Assembly (NCBI GenBank): GCA_016776875.1
Contig: JADHSN010000002.1
Coordinates: forward strand, 1-43,092
Reading direction: 5' to 3'
DNA from: Gammaproteobacteria bacterium
GTDB lineage: Bacteria; Pseudomonadota; Gammaproteobacteria; Arenicellales; UBA868
DNA: 43,092 nucleotides
Shown: in pieces, positions 21,703-31,950 of the stretch
How the letters are laid out: each line of letters starts with the position of its first letter
Position numbering within the stretch: the stretch's first letter is position 1
Notes under the pieces: model-generated
Seen by the model: the letters and a program-made list of their open reading frames with translations, nothing else
Told to the model about the DNA's origin: nothing
Databases searched by the model: none
Program-made: the position numbers and the translations under genes

Positions 21703-22671
21703 TTGAAAATTCTTTTTGCAGATAAGTTTCCACAGGATGGTGTAGATCAACTTCATGAGTTGGGCCATGAGTGCGATTTACAGCCTGATCTTGTGGGTGA
21801 GACCCTTCCTGCCGCGATTGGCGAGAGCGAGATTTTGGTTGTTCGAAGTACCAAAGTATCCGCGGATGCGATCCGGTCCGGAGAATCCCTACGGCTAATC
21901 ATTCGGGCCGGTGCAGGCACGAACACGATAGATAAGGCGTTCGCGGCGAGCCGTTCGATTCCTGTCTGTAACGTACCCGGTAAAAATGCTGCCGCGGTTG
22001 CGGAATTAGCAATGGGATTGATGATTTCGATCGATAGACGAATTCATGAAAACGTGATCGATATTCGGGCGGGTCATTGGAAAAAGAAAAAATACGCCGC
22101 CGCAAAGGGGTTGATGGGGCAAAAGCTTGGAATTATCGGGGTCGGTGCGATCGGATTATCACTGGCTGAGCGCGCTCGCGCTTTCGGGATTCAGGTCATG
22201 GTTGTCGATAAACCCTCTCGAAGTGCTGAATCAAAAGCCACTTTGTCAGATCTCGGGATTGAAGCCGTCGGATCTTTGCCCGAGCTACTACGGACGGCAG
22301 ATATTGTCAGTGTTCATGTTCCTAGCGCGCCAGAGACGAAGGGCATGATCAATGCTGAGTTTTTATCGGATATGAAACCGGGCGCTGTATTAATTAATAC
22401 CTCTCGCGGTGATGTGGTTGACGAGTCCGCGTTATTGAGCGCGATGGATGAAAAAGGAATTCGGGCGGGGCTTGATGTTTATGCTGATGAACCTGCAGTC
22501 AGTGAGGGCGAGTTTTTGTCCGCGCTCGCGAGTCATCCCAACACTTGCGGTACTCATCATATTGGGGCCTCAACTGAGCAAGCACAATCTGCAGTGTCAG
22601 AAGGTGTACTACAGATAATTAATTCGTTTAGTGAGGGAAGAATTCTTCACTGTGTGAATGATCAAGCTTAA
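21703..22671 (+). CDS. serA: D-3-phosphoglycerate dehydrogenase-like D-2-hydroxyacid dehydrogenase
   Basis: A 322-residue NAD-dependent dehydrogenase. The Rossmann motif is GVGAIG (146-151) and the catalytic set is R235 (NTSRGD), E263 (ADEP) and H286 (THHIGAST). The AGAGTNTID and IPVCNVPGKNAAAVAELA segments are close to SerA proteins. It lacks the C-terminal ACT domain that senses serine in E. coli SerA (410 residues), so feedback may be absent. The start is TTG at 21703, supported by a strong GGGAGG (21693-21698). The next gene is serC, which makes 3-phosphoglycerate oxidation the best call, although other hydroxyacids are possible. Confidence 0.82.
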   Translation: MKILFADKFPQDGVDQLHELGHECDLQPDLVGETLPAAIGESEILVVRSTKVSADAIRSGESLRLIIRAGAGTNTIDKAFAASRSIPVCNVPGKNAAAVAELAMGLMISIDRRIHENVIDIRAGHWKKKKYAAAKGLMGQKLGIIGVGAIGLSLAERARAFGIQVMVVDKPSRSAESKATLSDLGIEAVGSLPELLRTADIVSVHVPSAPETKGMINAEFLSDMKPGAVLINTSRGDVVDESALLSAMDEKGIRAGLDVYADEPAVSEGEFLSALASHPNTCGTHHIGASTEQAQSAVSEGVLQIINSFSEGRILHCVNDQA

Positions 22672-22689
22672 AAAAAATTGGAGAAGTCA

Positions 22690-23775
22690 ATGAGTCAAAG
22701 AGTGCACAACTTTAGTGCGGGCCCTTGCACCTTACCGCTTTCAGTTCTTGAGGAAGGTCAAGCCGAGTTCGTCAACTACCACGATTCCGGAATGTCCCTG
22801 ATCGAGATGAGCCATCGGGGCAAGCATTTTGTCTCGATTCATGATGAAGCCGTCGATTTGGTTCGATCAGTCTATGGCGTGCCTGATGAATTCGACGTGC
22901 TCTTTTTACAGGGTGGAGCGACATTGCAGTTCGCGATGGTGCCCATGAACCTGTTGGGAGCAGGTAGGAAAGGGGGTTACGTCAATTCAGGAACTTGGGC
23001 GAAAGGTGCGTTGACCGATGCCGGCTTTTACGGCGAGGCATATTCGGCATGGGACGGCTCTGCATGTGGCTTTTCTAGGATGCCCTCTTCAAATGAGATT
23101 GAAATTAAGCCAGATACTCGTTACCTCCATATCACATCAAATGAGACGATCGGCGGGGTTCGATTCGCGGACTGGCCCGAAGTAGATGTGCCGATGATCG
23201 GAGATATGTCTTCTGACTATATGTCGCGGCGAATTCCATGGGAGCGGTTTGATTTGGTGTATGGCGGCGCTCAAAAGAACTTGGGTCCGGCGGGTATGGC
23301 GATGGTCATCATTCGTAAATCCGTTGCGCAGGACTGTAATCAGGACATTGGCCGTTATTTACGATATGACATTCAAGCCGATAAAGGTTCGATGTTCAAT
23401 ACGCCCCCGGTATTTCCAATTTACATGGTTGGCAAGGTCTTGAAATGGATGCGTGACGTCGGAGGCATAGATGTCATTGAGCGCATGGCAAATGAGAAGG
23501 CGGCGGATCTTTATCAGGCCATTGATAGTAGTGAAGGGTTTTATCGCTGCCCTGTGGAGGAAGCCTCTCGCTCAGTGATGAATGTTGTTTTTAGATTGCC
23601 GAGTGAAGATCTGGAAAAAACCTTCATAACTGAAGCGAGCGAAGCCGGTCTTTTAAATTTAAAAGGGCATCGTAGCGTGGGAGGAATTAGGGCGAGTATT
23701 TATAACGCGATGCCTGCAGATGGTGTGAGAGCGCTGACTGACTTCATGGCAGCTTTTAGATCAAGTCATTCTTAG
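22690..23775 (+). CDS. serC: phosphoserine aminotransferase
   Basis: A 361-residue PLP-dependent class V aminotransferase (E. coli SerC is 362) that makes O-phosphoserine from 3-phosphohydroxypyruvate and glutamate; the family also serves vitamin B6 synthesis. HNFSAGPCTLP opens the protein, SHRGKHF and LFLQGGATLQF line the active site, and the PLP lysine is K196 in YGGAQKNLGPAG. The frame opens at a TTG (22678), but GGAG (22680-22683) points to the ATG at 22690. It follows serA by 18 bases and precedes DUF1015 by 18, forming one operon. Confidence 0.96.
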   Translation: MSQRVHNFSAGPCTLPLSVLEEGQAEFVNYHDSGMSLIEMSHRGKHFVSIHDEAVDLVRSVYGVPDEFDVLFLQGGATLQFAMVPMNLLGAGRKGGYVNSGTWAKGALTDAGFYGEAYSAWDGSACGFSRMPSSNEIEIKPDTRYLHITSNETIGGVRFADWPEVDVPMIGDMSSDYMSRRIPWERFDLVYGGAQKNLGPAGMAMVIIRKSVAQDCNQDIGRYLRYDIQADKGSMFNTPPVFPIYMVGKVLKWMRDVGGIDVIERMANEKAADLYQAIDSSEGFYRCPVEEASRSVMNVVFRLPSEDLEKTFITEASEAGLLNLKGHRSVGGIRASIYNAMPADGVRALTDFMAAFRSSHS

Positions 23776-23793
23776 TCGATAGGCATTTAGGAA

Positions 23794-25023
23794 ATGACTG
23801 AAATACATGCGTTCAAACCTTATTTGGTGTCGGCTACGGCCGCCACAACTGTTGTCAGTCCTGCTTATGATTCAATGAGTTCGTCTGAAAGACTGAGCTA
23901 TCGACAGGCCTATCCTCAAAATTATATTAACGTGATGCGGACGACCGATGATTTCCCTGAAGGCGAGCGCCCTTCGGAATCCCGGATTACTGCCGAAAAC
24001 ATCGAGGCACTACAAAAGTTACGCGACAGCGGGGCTTTCACCTTATGTAAAGAAGAAGGCGTGTTTGTCTATCAAGTGGAAATTGACGGCCACAGACAAA
24101 CGGGAATTGTTGCCGAAATTCCGATCCAAGAATATGAGACTGGTGTCGTCAGAAAGCATGAAGAGACTCGCAAAGAGCATGAGTTGCGTCTTGTGAGTTA
24201 CTTGACCGATGTTGGAGCAAGTTCAAGCCCTGTCTGCCTGGCTTATAAAAGCCAAGTCGATATCGATAGCGTGGTGGATAAAGTGTTCTCAGACGAGCCG
24301 TTACTCGATTTTGATTTGCCGGACGGTCTTCGCCAAAAACTTTGGCAGATCACAGATGCTGAAACACTTGCACAACTAAGAGAGGGCTTTGGCAATGTTT
24401 CTGCAACCTATTTGACAGATGGACATCATCGGGCCGCATCAACACTGCGGTATGCAGCAGGCTGTCACGAAAAGGGCAAGGGCAATGGACCGTGGGATTA
24501 TTTACTGGTTGTAATGTTTCCTGCTGAGCAGCTTCGGGTTCTGCCATTTAATCGTTGTGTTCGAGATCTGGGTTCGATTACCGAGGAGCAATTACTAGAT
24601 CAAATCAAAACCCATTTCTTGGTGGAGCCGGTACCCGCAACGGAGTCGTCACTTCCTCAGCGTCGGGGAGAATTCTTGATGCTGGTAGATGACCATGCTT
24701 ATCGTTTAACTCGACAAACTGACCCCAAAAGTTCATCCCCCGTTAAGAATCTGGATGTCAGTTTTCTCCAAGACTATCTCCTGTCACCTATTCTCGGTAT
24801 TCAAGATGCGAGAGGAGATCCCCGGCTTGATTATGTGACGGGCGACTCGGGTCTTGCGGGTTTAATTCAGCGGTCGCGGCAGGGATGGCGCCTTGGCTTT
24901 GCCTGCTATCCAACCTCTATGGAAGAGTTGATGGCCGTTGCCGATGCCGGAGAGGTTATGCCGCCGAAGTCAACCTGCTTTGATCCTAAGCCTCGATCTG
25001 GACTTTTTCTTAAGATGTCCTGA
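23794..25023 (+). CDS. DUF1015 family protein
   Basis: A 409-residue member of DUF1015. It begins with HAFKPYLVSATAATTVVSPAYDSMSSSER, the conserved N-terminal block, then YPQNYINVMR, and a central TYLTDGHHRAAST with a conserved double-histidine motif that looks like an active or metal site. Its biochemical function is not established to my knowledge. DUF1015 genes are often found beside serA and serC, as here, so a role in serine or phosphoserine metabolism is a fair inference; notably no serB phosphatase is seen in this operon. Confidence 0.85.
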   Translation: MTEIHAFKPYLVSATAATTVVSPAYDSMSSSERLSYRQAYPQNYINVMRTTDDFPEGERPSESRITAENIEALQKLRDSGAFTLCKEEGVFVYQVEIDGHRQTGIVAEIPIQEYETGVVRKHEETRKEHELRLVSYLTDVGASSSPVCLAYKSQVDIDSVVDKVFSDEPLLDFDLPDGLRQKLWQITDAETLAQLREGFGNVSATYLTDGHHRAASTLRYAAGCHEKGKGNGPWDYLLVVMFPAEQLRVLPFNRCVRDLGSITEEQLLDQIKTHFLVEPVPATESSLPQRRGEFLMLVDDHAYRLTRQTDPKSSSPVKNLDVSFLQDYLLSPILGIQDARGDPRLDYVTGDSGLAGLIQRSRQGWRLGFACYPTSMEELMAVADAGEVMPPKSTCFDPKPRSGLFLKMS

Positions 25024-25273: not shown

Positions 25274-25975
25274 ATGAGTGATGACCAGTCTGACGACCTT
25301 GATCTGAGCACCCTATCTGACGAAGAGCTGGTGGAGCAGATGCATGATGATCTTTATGATGGGTTAAAAGAGGAAATTGTAGAAGGTACTAACATCCTCC
25401 TGGGCCGAGGATGGGGTCCAGATAAGGTGTTATCGGACGCACTTGTTGAAGGTATGCGGATCGTCGGGATTGATTTTCGAGATGGCATTCTTTTCGTACC
25501 TGAAGTACTGATGGCGGCGAATGCAATGAAGGGCGGAATGGCGATTCTTCGGCCGCTGCTAGCCGAGACGGGGGCTGAATCAATCGGAACGGTCGTGCTC
25601 GGCACAGTGAAAGGTGATATTCACGATATTGGTAAAAATCTCGTGGGAATGATGCTTGAGGGCGCTGGATTCGAAGTATTTGATCTGGGCATTAATAACC
25701 CGGTCGAGAATTATCTAGAGGCAATTGAAAAACATAAGCCTGATATCGTTGGTATGTCTGCGCTTCTAACGACGACTATGCCCTATATGAAAGTCGTTAT
25801 CGACACGATGGTTGAGCAAGGCATTAGAGAGGATTTCATCGTGTTGGTCGGAGGCGCGCCCCTCAATGAGGAATTTGGTACCGCAATCGGTGCCGATGCG
25901 TATTGCCGCGATGCTGCGGTGGCGGTCGAGACAGCGAAGCAGTTGGTAGCTGACCGACGGGCTGCGCGCGCGTAG
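25274..25975 (+). CDS. B12-binding corrinoid methyl-carrier protein
   Basis: A 233-residue corrinoid protein of the MttC/MtbC/MtgC type. The N-terminal helical cap (about residues 18-100) contains the EGMRIVGIDFRDGILFVPEVL stretch, and the C-terminal Rossmann domain holds the base-off cobalamin motif DIHDIG (D115, H117, G120) with VLGTVKGDIHDIGKN, and the later MSALLTTTMPYM and VGGAPLNEEF loops. It carries a methyl group on cobalt between a substrate methyltransferase and a pterin-dependent one. An acidic head (residues 1-25) precedes the cap. It leads the one-carbon cluster, but no MttB/MtgB-type partner lies next to it. Confidence 0.95.
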   Translation: MSDDQSDDLDLSTLSDEELVEQMHDDLYDGLKEEIVEGTNILLGRGWGPDKVLSDALVEGMRIVGIDFRDGILFVPEVLMAANAMKGGMAILRPLLAETGAESIGTVVLGTVKGDIHDIGKNLVGMMLEGAGFEVFDLGINNPVENYLEAIEKHKPDIVGMSALLTTTMPYMKVVIDTMVEQGIREDFIVLVGGAPLNEEFGTAIGADAYCRDAAVAVETAKQLVADRRAARA

Positions 25976-26072
25976 GTGTTATTACGCCGGATCGATACGT
26001 TTTTATTGAAAGGGCTTGACTCCCCCGGGATCAAGTTCCTTTCGACCGACTATCACGAATACTAGCGCGTTT

Positions 26073-26693
26073 ATGACCTCGCCAGCGAGTTCAGCATCGA
26101 GCTTGGTGATTGCATGTGGCGCATTGGCTCATGAAATCACTAGCCTTAAGCGAATGAGCGGGTGGGATCATCTCGTCGTGACGTGTCTGCCAGCCAGTCT
26201 TCACAATCGACCCGAGCAAATTGCAATTAAGGTCAAACAAAAAATTGACGAGTCTCGTGATAAGTATCGATCTATATTTGTGGCTTATGCAGATTGCGGG
26301 ACGGGTGGGATGCTGGATAGCGTGCTTGAGAAAGAAGGCATTGAACGACTGCCGGGCGCACATTGCTATGAATTCTTCATGGGCTCTGATCAATTCGCGA
26401 AATGTTCTGACCGAGAACCTGGAACTTTTTATTTAACTGACTTCTTAGCGCAGCATTTCGAACGACTTATCATGGTTGAGTTGGGAATTCGCGATCATCC
26501 TGAGTTGCTTGAAATGTATTTTTCGAATTACACCAAACTGATTTACCTATCTCAATCAGATACGCCACGTTTTCTGGCAATGGCCCGTGCCGCGGCGGAC
26601 ACACTTGGACTTGAGTTTGAGCACGTGGTAACGGGCTACGGTGAGTTAAGAGTGGGGCTGTCGGCGTTTGCGTCCGATTGCGTGGTCAGCTAG
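26073..26693 (+). CDS. DUF1638 family protein
   Basis: A 206-residue DUF1638 protein. Conserved features are IACGALAHEI near the start, VVTCLPASLHNRPEQI, the FVAYADCGTGGMLD block and AHCYEFFMG, giving several cysteines in conserved positions that could bind metal or a cofactor. The frame opens at a TTG (26016) that would add 19 low-complexity residues and has its AGGG too close; the ATG at 26073 begins right before the domain and is used. DUF1638 genes recur next to corrinoid methyltransferase systems, which agrees with this location. Its activity is unknown. Confidence 0.85.
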   Translation: MTSPASSASSLVIACGALAHEITSLKRMSGWDHLVVTCLPASLHNRPEQIAIKVKQKIDESRDKYRSIFVAYADCGTGGMLDSVLEKEGIERLPGAHCYEFFMGSDQFAKCSDREPGTFYLTDFLAQHFERLIMVELGIRDHPELLEMYFSNYTKLIYLSQSDTPRFLAMARAAADTLGLEFEHVVTGYGELRVGLSAFASDCVVS

Positions 26694-26777
26694 ATCTTTA
26701 TTCGACAAAACAAGGGTTAAAAGGTCTCGAAGGATGGAGTCAAGGTCTTTTAAAAATGATGCAAGGGAGATTTAAAA

Positions 26778-27080
26778 GTGGCTAAGTTAATCACTGTTTT
26801 TTGGCGCGATATACCCTCTCAGGTAATGAGCCGCAAGGGACGAGAGACAAGTAAGATTTTATTAAGTGAGCGATTTCAGGACGCGATTGATCGAGCGGCG
26901 ATGCGCGCAGGGAAAGGGTCCTCGGATGCTTATATGAGTGAGTGGCGAAGAGATACAGTGCCGTGTGATGAAGATGATCTTGAAGCGGTGGTGAAGGCTC
27001 GTGCTGACGAACTTGAGGCCGCTTTCTCTGATGAAGATCTCTTGGCGTTAGTTCGCGCTAAAGGCGTCAAAGACGTCTAG
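26778..27080 (+). CDS. PF13769 ('virulence factor') small protein
   Basis: A 100-residue protein with the layout of the PF13769 family: KLITVFWRDIPSQVMSRKGRETSKILLSERFQDAIDRAAMRAG, then an SEWRRD block and an acidic helical tail. The family label is misleading; such genes commonly lie in bacterial corrinoid/folate methyl-transfer clusters. It starts with GTG at 26778, supported by AAGGGAGA seven bases upstream. Position between the DUF1638 and MetV-like genes points to a small subunit or accessory role. No catalytic motif is visible. Confidence 0.75.
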   Translation: MAKLITVFWRDIPSQVMSRKGRETSKILLSERFQDAIDRAAMRAGKGSSDAYMSEWRRDTVPCDEDDLEAVVKARADELEAAFSDEDLLALVRAKGVKDV

Positions 27081-27115
27081 CATTGAGTTAACCGAGATAG
27101 CATAGAAAAAGCACC

Positions 27116-27607
27116 ATGTATCGAATGAGACAATGGTCAGTGCGAAACGCTCGGATGCTCGAGTGGCTTTACAGGCGTGTTGAAGGGGTGTTAACGCTTT
27201 TGCACCCTCTTTGGCTTTGGGCGGGTTATAACCGAATTGAAAAGCCTGTTCGCAGTGTTGAGCGACTTATTAAAAGTGCGATGTTCGATTGTCATATGTG
27301 TGGAAGTTGTGTTTTGAGCGAGACTGGAATGTCTTGCCCAATGAATTGTCCAAAAGAGTTGCGCAACGGTCCTTGTGGCGGCGTCCGCGAGCACGGATAT
27401 TGCGAAGTCAAGCCTGAGATGCGCTGTGTTTGGGTGGATGCCTGGGAGGGGTCTCAAAAGATGCGCGGGGGGGCTAGCATTCAGCATGTCCAGCCGCCGC
27501 TTGCTAACGAGAATCGGGGCCGATCGTCGTGGTTGAGTGAAGTGCGAAAAAAACGTGATGAAAATTTTTTGTTAGGTGTCAAAAACCCGAGTCAAGATGC
27601 TAACTGA
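27116..27607 (+). CDS. MetV-like methylenetetrahydrofolate reductase C-terminal-domain protein
   Basis: A 163-residue protein with the MTHFR_C (PF12225) domain. Cysteines are arranged as CHMCGSC, then MSCPMNCPK, GPCGG, GYC and MRC between about residues 58 and 104. This cluster binds zinc in the MetV subunit of Moorella-type MetVF. A basic, Trp-rich amphipathic N-terminus (residues 1-45) with RRVEGVLTLLHPLWLWAGYNRIEKP could form a membrane-contacting or partner helix. The C-terminus overlaps the start of metF, which supports a MetV-MetF complex acting on methyl-THF. Confidence 0.85.
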   Translation: MYRMRQWSVRNARMLEWLYRRVEGVLTLLHPLWLWAGYNRIEKPVRSVERLIKSAMFDCHMCGSCVLSETGMSCPMNCPKELRNGPCGGVREHGYCEVKPEMRCVWVDAWEGSQKMRGGASIQHVQPPLANENRGRSSWLSEVRKKRDENFLLGVKNPSQDAN

Positions 27608-28598
27608 GCAGATAGGGAGCGAAGGGCAACCGTTACCGATGCTCGAAGGCCATGATTCTCCAGGTCGGCTTGAACGCTTGCTGCGCGCAGGAAAGTTTGC
27701 CGTAACAGCAGAAATCGCCCCACCGGACTCCGCTGCGCCAGAAGAAGTCTATGAGCGAGCTCGTATTTTCGACGGACATGTTGATGCGATAAACGCCACG
27801 GACGGATCGGGTGCGAACTGTCACATGTCGAGCGTAGGCGTGTGTTCATTGTTAACCCGCCAAGGCTATGCGATGGTGATGCAGGTATCTTGTCGAGACA
27901 GAAACCGCATCGCCATTCAGGGAGATGTATTGGGTGCCGCTGCGATGGGTGTGGCGAATATTCTTTGCTTAACGGGTGACGGGGTGCAAGCAGGAGACCA
28001 GCCGAGTGCCAAGCCGGTCTTTGATCTTGACTGTATGAGTCTGCTGGAAATGGTGACTTCAATGCGGGATCAGAGCCAGTTTTTAAGCGGTCGCCGGCTG
28101 AGTAGTCCGCCCAGAGTATTTCTGGGTGCCGCGGCTAATCCTTTCGGCCCACCGCTTGATTATCGACCCCTCCGTCTTCAAAAAAAGATAGCTGCGGGTG
28201 CGCAATTTATTCAAACGCAATACTGTTTTGACATTGATCGCTTTCGGACCTACATGAATCGGGTGAGGGAGATGGGGCTTACAGAACGTTGCTATATTTT
28301 GGTCGGGGTAGGGCCCATGCCTTCTGCTAAAACCGCCGCATGGATTCGGGACAACGTTCCAGGGGTACACATTCCGGATCAAATTATTCGCAGATTATTG
28401 TGCGCCAAAAACCAGAGAGAGGAAGGTGTAAAGATTTGTATTGAGATGATTCAGGCAGTTCGAGAGATTCAAGGCGTTAGCGGGGTGCACATTATGGCCT
28501 ATCGCCAAGAGGAGCGAGTACCTGAAATTGTGACCGAGGCCGGGATACTGGAAGGCAGATCACCCTGGTATCCGGGAATAAAAACAGACCATATTTAA
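27597..28598 (+). CDS. metF: methylenetetrahydrofolate reductase
   Basis: A 333-residue flavin TIM-barrel enzyme of the MetF family that interconverts methylene-THF and methyl-THF. The catalytic acidic residue lies in KFAVTAEIAPPDSA; NILCLTGDGVQAGDQPSA and FIQTQYCFDIDRF are FAD/folate-site blocks. GTG at 27576 would add seven residues; ATG at 27597, overlapping the upstream gene by 11 bases, is used. Beside a corrinoid methyl-transfer system it probably runs oxidatively, turning demethylation-derived methyl-THF into methylene-THF; this direction is inference. Confidence 0.88.
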   Translation: MLTEQIGSEGQPLPMLEGHDSPGRLERLLRAGKFAVTAEIAPPDSAAPEEVYERARIFDGHVDAINATDGSGANCHMSSVGVCSLLTRQGYAMVMQVSCRDRNRIAIQGDVLGAAAMGVANILCLTGDGVQAGDQPSAKPVFDLDCMSLLEMVTSMRDQSQFLSGRRLSSPPRVFLGAAANPFGPPLDYRPLRLQKKIAAGAQFIQTQYCFDIDRFRTYMNRVREMGLTERCYILVGVGPMPSAKTAAWIRDNVPGVHIPDQIIRRLLCAKNQREEGVKICIEMIQAVREIQGVSGVHIMAYRQEERVPEIVTEAGILEGRSPWYPGIKTDHI

Positions 28599-28611
28599 TG
28601 AGGATCAGTGA

Positions 28612-29523
28612 GTGACAGTTACCGTCGTAAGTTCAGCAACTAAAGAGGTTCGAATTGGGTTTGATGAGCCGTTCTGTGTTATCGGTGAGCGAATCAATCC
28701 GACCGGTAGGAAAATCCTGGCGGATGAAATGAAAGCCGGCGATTATAGTCGTGTTCAGGCAGACGCTTTAGCGCAGGTCGCTGCTGGAGCAAATATGCTG
28801 GATGTCAACGCGGGCATTCCACTTGCTGACGAGCCTGCCATTCTGGCGGACTGTGTAAAACTGGTGCAGTCCCTAACAGATGTGCCACTGTCGATCGACT
28901 CTTCAATTGTTGCGGCGCTTGAATCAGGTTTGGAAGTCTATCAAGGAAAAGCGCTCGTTAACTCGGTGACTGGAGAGGAGGAGCGTCTGGAGCAGGTATT
29001 GCCGTTGGTTAAGAAGTATGGCGCTGCCGTAGTCGCGATTTCTAACGATGAAACCGGAATCTCTGAGGATCCTAATGTCAGGTTTGAGGTTGCAAAGCGA
29101 ATTGTGGAAAGAGCCGCAGACCATGGAATTCCCGCCTCTGACATTGTCGTTGATCCTCTAGTGATGCCCATTGGCGCGCTCAATGATGCCGGCAGGCAGG
29201 TGATGCATATCCTGACTCGCCTTCGAGACGAATTAAAAGTAAATAGCACTTGCGGCGCTTCAAATGTGAGCTTTGGCTTGCCAAATCGAAATGGATTGAA
29301 TGCCGCTTTTTTGACAATGGCAATTGGAGCGGGAATGACTTCAGCGATAACCAGTCCATTGCATGTCGAGGTGATGCAGGCAGTGATGGGTGCAGATGTC
29401 ATGATGGGCCATGATCCGGACTGCCTTCGCTGGATTGCGCGTTTTAGGGAGGCCCCCGCTGACGGCCAAGTGAGTGCACGAGACAGCAGTCGTGGGAGTC
29501 GACGTCGGGCTCGGAATGGCTGA
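28612..29523 (+). CDS. pterin-dependent methyltransferase (methyl-THF:corrinoid)
   Basis: A 303-residue dihydropteroate-synthase-like barrel of the AcsE/MtgA type. GERINPTGR (25-33), MLDVNAG (62-68) and PLSIDSS near 92-98 bind the pterin, with NSVTGEEERL and the later DPLVMPIG block. It should move a methyl group between the corrinoid protein and tetrahydrofolate. The C-terminus (SRGSRRRARNG) is arginine-rich beyond the barrel. The start is GTG with AGGAT close by. Its last codons overlap the GFA gene by eight bases. Confidence 0.92.
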   Translation: MTVTVVSSATKEVRIGFDEPFCVIGERINPTGRKILADEMKAGDYSRVQADALAQVAAGANMLDVNAGIPLADEPAILADCVKLVQSLTDVPLSIDSSIVAALESGLEVYQGKALVNSVTGEEERLEQVLPLVKKYGAAVVAISNDETGISEDPNVRFEVAKRIVERAADHGIPASDIVVDPLVMPIGALNDAGRQVMHILTRLRDELKVNSTCGASNVSFGLPNRNGLNAAFLTMAIGAGMTSAITSPLHVEVMQAVMGADVMMGHDPDCLRWIARFREAPADGQVSARDSSRGSRRRARNG

Positions 29524-29932
29524 ACTAGAAACCGTTGGCGCTTGTTTGTGTGGAGCCGTTCGCTTCACGATTCGAGGACCGCTTAGGGATGTTTTAGCTT
29601 GCCATTGTGGCCAATGCCGTAAATCAAGCGGGCATTTTTGGGCGGCCACAGCGGCACCTCGTGACGCGTTCACCTTTCAGTTGGATGACGGTTTGACCTG
29701 GTTCCAGTCCTCCCAAGAGGTTAAGCGGGGTTTTTGTTGTCATTGCGGGTCCAGTCTCTTCTGGAGCCACAGTGGCAAAGATACGCTTTCGGTCTCCGCA
29801 GGGGCTCTTGAGAAGCCCACCAATCTTATTTTTGGGGGGCACATTTTTTGCGATGATGCTTCCGATTATTACCAGGTTGATGTCGGTGAGGGTGTTTTTG
29901 AAACAACATCGGCAGGCCGTGCAGGTTGTTAG
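29516..29932 (+). CDS. GFA (glutathione-dependent formaldehyde-activating) family protein
   Basis: A 138-residue GFA/CENP-V-like zinc protein with the cysteine layout CLCG, CHCGQCRK and CCHCGSSLFW, matching the two-zinc Mss4-like fold. The related Gfa of Paracoccus speeds S-hydroxymethylglutathione formation, but the family is broad, so formaldehyde is only suggested by the setting. The frame is open from a GTG at 29474, yet the ATG at 29516 matches the family start (LETVGACLCGAVRF) and overlaps the previous stop by eight bases. Confidence 0.85.
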   Translation: MAELETVGACLCGAVRFTIRGPLRDVLACHCGQCRKSSGHFWAATAAPRDAFTFQLDDGLTWFQSSQEVKRGFCCHCGSSLFWSHSGKDTLSVSAGALEKPTNLIFGGHIFCDDASDYYQVDVGEGVFETTSAGRAGC

Positions 29933-29946
29933 GGGAATGAAAAAAC

Positions 29947-31950
29947 ATGAAAGATGATGTGATGGTTGTATTTACGCCCTCTGGACGCAGAGGCCGAGTG
30001 CCATCTGGTACTACTGTTCTTCAAGCCGCACGCGATTTGGGTGTCGATCTAGATTCTGTATGTGGTGGAAGAGCGATTTGTGGACGTTGTCAGGTTACCT
30101 TGAGCGAAGGGTCTTTCCCAAAACACGGCATTGAATCCCGATCCGAAAATCTTTCTGATTTTGGCGCAAACGAGGTTTCATTCGATCAGGCTGAGGGTTT
30201 AAAGAAAGGACGAAGGCTGGGGTGCTCGGCTCGCTTGTTGGGTGACGCGGTTATCGACGTGCCACCTGAAAGTCAGGTTCACCGACAGGTTGTCAGAAAA
30301 CGAACTGAAGTACATGATTTGGCAGTCAATCCGCTTGTTCGTTTGTATGTTGTTGAGGTTTCTGAGCCTAGCATGCATGAGCCGGTCTCCGATTTACATC
30401 GACTATTTGAGGAGCTCGAGTTCGAGTGGGGACTGACCGATCTGACATGCGACGGTCATGTACTTAAAGTGTTGCAACCCATCATGCGAAAGGGGAATTG
30501 GCAGGTTACTGTCGCGATCTATCAGGATAAAGAGATCATTGCCGTTTGGCCCGGTCTTCATCAGCGGTTACTTGGACTTGCAGTGGATATTGGATCGACG
30601 ACAATTGCCGCTCATCTTGTTGATCTCACAAGCGGAGAAGCGCTTGCTTCTGCGGGCCGCATGAATCCTCAGATTCGATTTGGGGAAGATCTCATGAGTC
30701 GAGTTTCTTACGTGATGATGCAGCCCGGCAGTGAGGATGAGATGTGCTCGGCAGTTCGCGAAGCGGTTGCTGGACTGGTTGATGAAGTTTGCGAGGAGGC
30801 AAATGAGTTAGCTAACGATATCCTTGATTGCGCGTTCGTTGGAAATCCCATCATGCATCATTTGTTCCTGGGCATTTCTCCCCTTGAATTGGGCGGTGCT
30901 CCTTTTGCACTCGCAACTGATGGCGCGGTCAAAATGACGGCTAAAGAGGTTGGTCTGGAGTTGAACCCGGGCGCCCGCTGCTATGTGTTGCCATGTATTG
31001 CCGGTCATGTGGGTGCAGATTGTGCAGCCGTTGTCTTATCGGAAGCCCCGTATCTTCGAGAGGAGATGTCATTGCTTGTCGATGTAGGCACAAACGCGGA
31101 GATCGTGCTTGGAAACCGAGATCGATTACTCTCAGCCAGTAGTCCGACGGGCCCCGCTTTTGAAGGCGCGCAAATAAGTTCAGGACAACGCGCGGCACCT
31201 GGGGCAATTGAGCGGGTCAGGATTGACCCTGAAACGCTTGAGCCTCGCTTTAAGGTTATTGGTGGAGATCTATGGTCCAATGACCCAAGTTTTGAAAGTC
31301 AGTTGGGCGCTGGCGCGATCACTGGCATATGCGGATCTGGAATTATCGAGGTCTTAGGGGAGATGTATCTTTCTGGCATCATTAACACCGATGGCGTTAT
31401 CGATGGAGAGTTAATTAATCGTTCTGATCGAATTGTTGAGGATGGCCGTACGTTCTCGTATGTTTTGCACGCGGGGGCCGTGACAATCACGATTACTCAA
31501 AATGATGTTCGCGCGATTCAGCTTGCAAAAGCAGCGCTTTATGCCGGTGTTCGACTGCTGATGGACAAGCTTAACGTGGATAAGATTGATCGCATTCGTC
31601 TCGCTGGAGCCTTTGGTTCACATATTGATGTTAAATATGCAATGGTACTGGGTTTGATTCCCGATTGCGCGATTGAGAATGTGACGTCAGCAGGTAATGC
31701 AGCGGGAAGCGGTGCGCATATTGCGTTAGTGGACTCCAATGCTCGGCTCGAGATCGAGAGAGAGGTTCGACGCATTGAAAAAATTGAGACTGCAGTTGAG
31801 AGTCGGTTTCAGGAGCATTTCATCGAGGCAATGGCTATTCCCCACAAAACGGCTAGTTATCCCGAGCTTTCCAAAGTCGTGTCATGGCCGGCTCGGTCCG
31901 AATCAAAGGAGTCGGTGCCGTCAACTGGACGCCGTCGAAGACGCCGTTAA
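29947..31950 (+). CDS. ferredoxin-ASKHA activator of corrinoid proteins (RACE type)
   Basis: A 667-residue protein of the RACE/RamA-like, DUF4445 family. An N-terminal plant-type 2Fe-2S domain has C39, C45, C48 and C93. A linker domain (about 110-205) precedes the ASKHA ATPase core, with phosphate-1 motif LAVDIGSTTIAAHLVDL, CAFVGNPIMHHLFLG, LLVDVGTNAEIVLG and the adenosine loop LAGAFGSHID. It reduces inactive Co(II) to Co(I) on the corrinoid carrier using ATP. The tail is arginine-rich (GRRRRRR). In known RACE proteins the electron donor varies; none is identified here. Confidence 0.92.
   Translation: MKDDVMVVFTPSGRRGRVPSGTTVLQAARDLGVDLDSVCGGRAICGRCQVTLSEGSFPKHGIESRSENLSDFGANEVSFDQAEGLKKGRRLGCSARLLGDAVIDVPPESQVHRQVVRKRTEVHDLAVNPLVRLYVVEVSEPSMHEPVSDLHRLFEELEFEWGLTDLTCDGHVLKVLQPIMRKGNWQVTVAIYQDKEIIAVWPGLHQRLLGLAVDIGSTTIAAHLVDLTSGEALASAGRMNPQIRFGEDLMSRVSYVMMQPGSEDEMCSAVREAVAGLVDEVCEEANELANDILDCAFVGNPIMHHLFLGISPLELGGAPFALATDGAVKMTAKEVGLELNPGARCYVLPCIAGHVGADCAAVVLSEAPYLREEMSLLVDVGTNAEIVLGNRDRLLSASSPTGPAFEGAQISSGQRAAPGAIERVRIDPETLEPRFKVIGGDLWSNDPSFESQLGAGAITGICGSGIIEVLGEMYLSGIINTDGVIDGELINRSDRIVEDGRTFSYVLHAGAVTITITQNDVRAIQLAKAALYAGVRLLMDKLNVDKIDRIRLAGAFGSHIDVKYAMVLGLIPDCAIENVTSAGNAAGSGAHIALVDSNARLEIEREVRRIEKIETAVESRFQEHFIEAMAIPHKTASYPELSKVVSWPARSESKESVPSTGRRRRRR

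Follow-up and report, generated by a model that had tools for sequence, protein, structure and literature searches.

Phosphoserine phosphatase (SerB), a HAD protein recognised by the TIGR00338 model, has several non-orthologous replacements in gut bacteria, namely SerB2 (a histidine phosphatase), SerB3 and SerB4, which are mostly inferred from genome context (PMC9026213). The same source counts, among 2856 gut genomes, 450 that possess SerA and SerC and none of the four SerB types. Dehalobacter, which has no SerB, can grow in the absence of serine (PMC4751268), and serine synthesis in Desulfovibrio is described as unresolved (PMC5764234, PMC7311316). Free serine kinases are represented by SerK, the ADP-dependent enzyme of Thermococcus kodakarensis (TK0378; PDB 5x0b-5x0k; P. 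furiosus 1vk1), and by SbnI of staphyloferrin B synthesis, which makes phosphoserine for this siderophore according to a title cited in PMC12704722. Here we describe a serA-serC-DUF1015 operon without serB in a stretch of 43,092 nucleotides (contig JADHSN010000002.1, hereafter the window) from a gammaproteobacterium of the order Arenicellales, and propose, with a probability of roughly 0.6, that its DUF1015 protein (PF06245) is an enlarged relative of SerK and SbnI and the replacement of SerB as the last step of serine synthesis.

The three genes of the operon lie on the + strand. The first, serA (21,703..22,671), starts at a TTG codon preceded by GGAGG and encodes a 3-phosphoglycerate dehydrogenase of 322 amino acids, with two 2-hydroxyacid dehydrogenase domains (PF00389 and PF02826) and general NAD-binding models as its Pfam content. 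Its best equivalog is the 3-phosphoglycerate dehydrogenase model TIGR01327, at 249 bits, which is under the cut-off and covers residues 2-313 only. The phosphoserine aminotransferase gene, serC (22,690..23,775; 361 amino acids), encodes a protein that scores over cut-off with both NF003764 (470 bits, cut-off 253) and TIGR01364 (450 bits); its open reading frame (ORF) can be read from a TTG at 22,678, yet GGAG precedes the ATG at 22,690. The third gene (23,794..25,023) encodes a DUF1015 protein of 409 amino acids, a putative SerK-fold enzyme acting on phosphoserine or serine, which matches PF06245 with 239 bits (cut-off 25.8) and matched no family in an NCBIfam search; we take COG4198 to denote the same family. 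Eighteen bases separate serA from serC, and another 18 separate serC from DUF1015.

The preliminary description of this locus had reported a serA-serC-DUF1015 operon without serB and a SerA without an ACT domain, and both statements are borne out: serB is absent from the whole window, and the Pfam search detected no ACT domain in the 322-residue SerA, an enzyme that might, as supposed there, escape feedback by serine. When serB was sought elsewhere in the genome (75.5% complete, 148 contigs), as had been suggested, nothing exceeded the TIGR00338 cut-off, the best matches being two phosphoglycolate-phosphatase-like HAD proteins at 16.4 and 13.5 bits. That serB had been overlooked through genome incompleteness was rejected, since 55 other genomes of the order that carry DUF1015 and are at least 85% complete are also without serB over cut-off. 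A genome-wide DUF1015 scan with a single-sequence query returned three loci only. A DUF1015 protein 93% identical to that of the window was found in a contig of a metagenome-assembled genome deposited under the name Candidatus Thioglobus MED-G172; a further relative is recorded as an Arenicellales bacterium.

Among the window's genome and its relatives, DUF1015 is present in 35 of 41 genomes. Thirty DUF1015 loci from this genome and close relatives were read with flanks of 1.5 kb, and in 27 of them serC and serA stand immediately before DUF1015 in the same orientation, an adjacency that exceeds chance. These 27 include one locus (L035) in which serC is split across two frames; a further locus (L028) has only serA upstream, and a divergent pair (L011, L012) has neither gene. 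The same operon slot is occupied by serB in several relatives. Genome G030 presents serC followed by a serB encoding 414 amino acids with ACT and HAD domains and is devoid of DUF1015, and G355, from the same genus, presents serC-DUF1015-serB; in both, the genes are preceded by a similar response-regulator-like gene and followed by a similar ligase gene. Within family f8, G031 and G370 carry serC-serB and no DUF1015, and other genera carry serA-serC-DUF1015 (L038/L050, L148). Furthermore, G012 presents serA-serC-DUF1015-serB, and G032 has serC-serB at one site and serA-DUF1015 at another. The identity of serB at L058, L040, L145 and L146 was confirmed by NCBIfam. Both in family f8 and in genus g12, serB and DUF1015 are hence exchanged within one operon slot, as if the two had been redundant and one or the other had then been lost.

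The distribution of the two genes was compared in all 85 genomes of the order at a completeness setting of 85%, with the window's own genome (75.5%) included. DUF1015 is present in 60 genomes, serB over cut-off in 23, and both in only four (G355, G029, G032 and G021), leaving 56 genomes with DUF1015 only, 19 with serB only and six with neither (Fisher p = 2.5e-10). Among 299 Pseudomonadota genomes, DUF1015 was detected over cut-off in 42, of which 33 are without serB at E<=1e-10 (9 with both, 33 with DUF1015 only, 236 with serB only and 21 with neither; Fisher p = 1.2e-21). The nine genomes with both genes comprise seven from family f48, one from f16 and a weak case from f39, and the 33 serB-less genomes are spread over 15 of the 18 DUF1015-bearing families. 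Of the 42 DUF1015 genomes, 36 keep the serC gene (NF003764), including 28 of the 33 serB-less ones; it is therefore serB that is missing, and not the whole pathway.

DUF1015 does not account for every serB gap: serC persists in 11 of the 13 listed genomes that have neither serB nor DUF1015. In family f19, five genomes (G071, G130, G134, G270 and G288) have serC and neither serB (E<=1e-10) nor DUF1015, a gene content that may point to another, different last step of serine synthesis. Two genomes of 0.9 Mb, G221 (L067) and G202, keep DUF1015, and neither serB nor an NF003764 serC was found in them; the G221 copy groups with Bacteroidota in the DUF1015 tree.

Other phyla were sampled via records of a plasmid collection, some of which are misfiled chromosomes, and 14 control genomes. 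The arrangement serC-serA-DUF1015 was observed in Listeria monocytogenes, Bacteroides finegoldii and Parabacteroides distasonis, and on megaplasmids of Enterococcus raffinosus and E. gilvus, and Prevotella presents serC-ORF-serA-DUF1015. This gene order differs from the gammaproteobacterial serA-serC-DUF1015, and the operon occurs in three phyla and two gene orders. In addition, serC-oxidoreductase-DUF1015 neighbours are documented in Porphyromonas (PMC11316588). A tree of 62 DUF1015 proteins places the 22 from the order's main group in a monophyletic clade (support 1.0), apart from those of Bacillota and Bacteroidota.

No serB over cut-off was detected in the one complete chromosome record of L. 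monocytogenes examined (best match 33 bits). Strain EGDe of L. monocytogenes, grown in minimal medium, incorporates label from 13C-glucose into Ser, and the authors assign both Ser and Gly to the amino acids made from intermediates of lower glycolysis (PMC4217532); serC is listed, in a Listeria context, among the genes required for multiplication in cells (PMC3091722). Across these different strains, the absence of serB and the labelling suggest that L. monocytogenes may make serine without SerB.

An AlphaFold2 model of the window's DUF1015 protein, computed with 51 sequences, reached a predicted local distance difference test score of 95. Foldseek searches against the PDB returned nine matches at E<=0.001, all of them free serine kinases (SerK 5x0b/e/g/j/k, P. 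furiosus 1vk1 and SbnI), and the matched T. kodakarensis entries contain AMP, ADP or phosphoserine plus AMP. VIA-align superimposed 224 residues of the model on the 240-residue chain of SerK 5x0k (Z 13.4, root-mean-square deviation 5.7), and the next family after SerK and SbnI was Srx, at Z 6.2 over 92 residues. A second model, for a standalone DUF1015 protein of another lineage, yielded the same nine PDB matches, with 217 residues aligned to 5x0k (Z 13.2) and the next non-SerK row at Z 2.1. The predicted fold is hence that of a free serine kinase across nearly all of SerK, extending beyond the ParB core.

The matches to Srx, Noc and ParB (Z 5-6; ParB 5.3, Noc 5.8) were set aside because they encompass the shared core only, and no Pfam domain corresponding to the helix-turn-helix or C-terminal dimerisation domains of ParB clamps is common to the 51 DUF1015 members, the only Pfam family found in all of them being DUF1015 itself. 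Two known phosphatase types were likewise rejected, with no HAD Pfam model matching any of the 51 members up to E 10 and no histidine phosphatase (PF00300) match among them. Searches of PDB sequences with phmmer and profiles of DUF1015 did not return SerK, and yielded one chance amidase match (E 0.031). In a 2025 paper, 'DU1015' is listed among the ParB-fold proteins picked for nucleoside triphosphate-binding tests and is not named among the binders in its section 8 (PMC12704722).

Three sequence boxes stand out within this predicted fold. The central one, D209-G-H-H-R213 (codons at 24,418..24,432, + strand), is identical in 51 of 51 members and is matched in an unedited hhalign alignment to D69-GHH-R73 of SerK, the GxxR box of the ParB/SerK fold. 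Hhalign also matches P390-P-K392-S-T394 (24,961..24,975, + strand) to S219-P-K221-T-T223 of SerK, pairing GEVMPPKST with GEVYSPKTT as it does DGHHR with DGHHR; P390, K392 and T394 are identical in all 51 members, and position 393 is Ser in 50 of them. The third box, H122-E123-E124-T125 (24,157..24,168, + strand), presents identical H122, E123 and T125 in 51 of 51 members, and we propose E123 as the match of SerK E30. The unedited alignment stops short of this region, and H122-E123 pair with SerK H29-E30 only after removal of the DUF1015 insert at 153-202, in an exploratory global alignment that reaches 78%. When 16 sequences representing four phyla were compared, all 16 kept the H-E, DGHHR and P-x-K-x-T boxes, even copies with 25% identity. 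The titles of PDB entries name E30A and E30Q mutants of SerK, from which a role of E30 may be presumed. The ParB-fold proteins tested require the GxxR arginine to bind nucleotide (PMC12704722). The GHHR of DUF1015 corresponds to this nucleotide box, and the full conservation of nucleotide-type boxes suggests that DUF1015 may bind a nucleotide.

Context and predicted fold together make it likely that DUF1015 acts on serine or phosphoserine. In the proposed pathway, SerA would make 3-phosphohydroxypyruvate and SerC would make O-phosphoserine, from which DUF1015 would strip the phosphate in a SerK-type active site, with the DGHHR and C-terminal Pro-x-Lys-x-Thr boxes gripping phosphate or nucleotide and E123 serving as general acid/base. 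The substrate, the direction towards serine and the roles of the motifs are what we infer here; the direction is somewhat more probable than its reverse, being favoured by the redundancy pattern and by Listeria. Hydrolysis of phosphoserine is energetically easier than transfer of its phosphate to a nucleotide, and on energetic grounds water is the favoured acceptor. We consider it improbable that DUF1015 operates in serine synthesis as a kinase in reverse, passing the phosphate of phosphoserine to AMP, ADP or a cytidine nucleotide; if it did, the last step would conserve, in many bacteria of several phyla, the phosphate that SerB discards. The preliminary description had hinted at DUF1015 as a stand-in for the missing phosphoserine phosphatase. 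The opposite distribution, the presence of serB in the same slot and the operon in other phyla speak for such a stand-in, but a phosphatase of known kind it is not: its predicted fold and motifs are those of SerK, and phosphatase activity is one of several possible reactions.

The nearest solved structures are kinases, and DUF1015 could also be read as a serine kinase, forming phosphoserine from serine and a nucleotide, with SerC and SerA reversed to 3-phosphoglycerate. We regard this flow as unlikely, though a serious rival, together with the rationale that would accompany it, namely that glycine and one-carbon units are assimilated via serine and that serB is absent to avoid a futile cycle. 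A serine-to-3-phosphoglycerate route has indeed been proposed for Desulfurococcales, where serK stands beside serA and aminotransferase genes (PMC5120207), but L. monocytogenes, without serB over cut-off, still makes Ser from glucose carbon (PMC4217532). Similarly, COG4198 has been reported behind glycine riboswitches in metagenome fragments (PMC2211319), whereas Rfam searches of eight sources detected no riboswitch or T-box at gathering score, their sole match being a tRNA. In families f1 and f7, genes of folate one-carbon metabolism lie next to the operon, as assimilation through serine would have it; a serC-DUF1015-serB operon (G355, G012), however, would couple opposed enzymes, and redundancy accounts more readily for the disappearance of one or the other gene from it.

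It is also improbable that DUF1015 regulates or scaffolds the serine pathway, as a ParB-like switch sensing a nucleotide or phosphoserine, while an unrelated phosphatase acts. The ParB fold is often a switch (PMC12704722), and the genomes with serC and neither DUF1015 nor serB imply that other phosphatases exist, but one would not anticipate a regulator chiefly in genomes that have no serB, and the match of the model to SerK spans almost all of that enzyme, its C-terminal region as well. A 198-residue histidine phosphatase in the window's genome, distantly like phosphoserine phosphatase 1 (59 bits to 4ij5), could be the acting enzyme, but it scores 116 bits as alpha-ribazole phosphatase against 75 as PspA, both below cut-off; PF00300 itself was found in 10 of 10 genomes searched and is too general to decide. 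Finally, a phylogenetic coincidence, in which a few lineages happen to carry DUF1015 and miss serB, would agree with the concentration of DUF1015 genomes in few clades and with the modest genus-level statistics given below. It appears highly improbable in view of the 15 of 18 families that are serB-free in their DUF1015 genomes, the exchange within family f8 and genus g12 in one operon slot, and the operon's presence in three phyla with two gene orders.

Several observations weigh against the proposed replacement of SerB by DUF1015. To our knowledge, no activity is known for any DUF1015 protein. Finding a kinase fold where a phosphatase should stand is surprising in energetic terms, unless the protein acts by hydrolysis, and if DUF1015 were a kinase, avoidance of a futile cycle would equally explain the missing serB. 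The resemblance of DUF1015 to SerK in sequence alone is slight (hhalign E 0.0033, probability 9.6%), only the C-terminal box aligns when a different DUF1015 set is used, and the H-E segment alone found nothing when compared with SerK (E 0.3); the homology of DUF1015 and SerK consequently rests on the predicted fold plus the motifs. In terms of distribution, counting as serB every sub-cut-off HAD match at E<=1e-10 (range 1e-10 to 1e-25) changes the order table to 17 genomes with both genes, 43 with DUF1015 only, 22 with serB only and three with neither, although the exclusion persists (p = 5e-7). By genus majority, the 29 genera divide into 4, 19, 4 and 2 (p = 0.033); because this value is only 0.033, the genome-level p-values overstate independence, and the statistics are not phylogenetically independent. 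DUF1015 and serB coexist in the seven family f48 genomes and in the controls Bacteroides ihuae and Methanosarcina acetivorans, and five of the 33 serB-less DUF1015 genomes, including the two of 0.9 Mb, are without an NF003764 serC. Outside the order, 30 Pseudomonadota DUF1015 loci were read with flanks of up to 1.5 kb: all were without serA and serC, and three have serB there.

Beyond the operon, the distance of 250 bases between the end of DUF1015 and the ATG of a corrinoid-protein gene at 25,274 confirms the spacing given in the preliminary description for an adjoining methyl-oxidation cluster, the gene set of which fits either methyl oxidation or a split methionine synthase. This cluster (25,274-31,950) encodes a B12-binding protein, DUF1638, PF13769, an MTHFR C-terminal domain, MTHFR, a pterin-binding methyltransferase, GFA and RACo, and overlaps the gene set described in Phaeobacter for a split methionine synthase and B12 reactivation, which includes DUF1638 and a RamA-like DUF4445 (PMC5764234). 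The window's genome also carries two stand-alone PF02574 proteins. Judging from gene content, methionine synthesis may be the function of the cluster, either instead of methyl oxidation or in addition to it. The corrinoid-protein gene follows DUF1015 in 19 of the 30 loci read in the window's genome and close relatives, all belonging to the family of the window's genome. Family f7 has the same one-carbon cluster, separated from the serine genes by a formate-tetrahydrofolate ligase gene, which was identified in L058 and has similar ORFs in L049 and L145. The suggested one-carbon link is thus upheld in these two families and is not seen in most other families of the order.

Other DUF1015 loci present variations on this theme. 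A second, shorter paralogue of 371-375 amino acids (L006:7237-8349; L056:3340-4464), with 23-26% identity and no N-terminal PxYD region, retains the H-E, DGHHR and PxKxT boxes, and in L006 it sits in tandem behind the operonic copy. Genome G015 carries, besides its serA-serC-DUF1015 operon, a HAD protein of 306 amino acids (76 bits to serB, under cut-off) encoded before a second SerA of 528 amino acids (L054, 3026-5585). In Monoglobus (L103, 3107-8702), genes for homoserine dehydrogenase, homoserine kinase and aspartate kinase follow a divergent DUF1015 gene, a context that hints at a variant for phosphohomoserine or threonine.

The PMC literature searched gave no function for DUF1015, COG4198 or PF06245. 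The enzyme type is known; what is new, within the range of these searches, is the place proposed for it in the serine synthesis of bacteria. If DUF1015 is indeed a stand-in for SerB, a named family would fill part of the recorded serB gap in many bacterial genomes, one DUF would gain a function, many auxotrophy predictions would change, and the SerK fold would be shown to serve bacterial central metabolism.

Compared with known systems, DUF1015 shares with SerB the proposed reaction and, in relatives, the slot behind serC, but it belongs to an unrelated family without any HAD match even at E<=10, and it differs in fold from SerB2, SerB3 and SerB4. SbnI is the second-best fold match (Z 11.6 over 213 residues), although no link of SbnI to serA-serC was met in the literature consulted. 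The closest system is SerK, which resembles DUF1015 in predicted fold, in the DGHHR and Pro-x-Lys-x-Thr boxes and possibly in the His-Glu box, and which is linked to serA and an aminotransferase in Desulfurococcales (PMC5120207). In contrast to SerK (242 amino acids), however, the 409-residue DUF1015 protein is longer by some 90 residues at its N-terminus and carries an insert at about 153-202, shows 15-16% identity in the structural alignment, and is a bacterial protein encoded in serA-serC operons, mainly where serB is missing.

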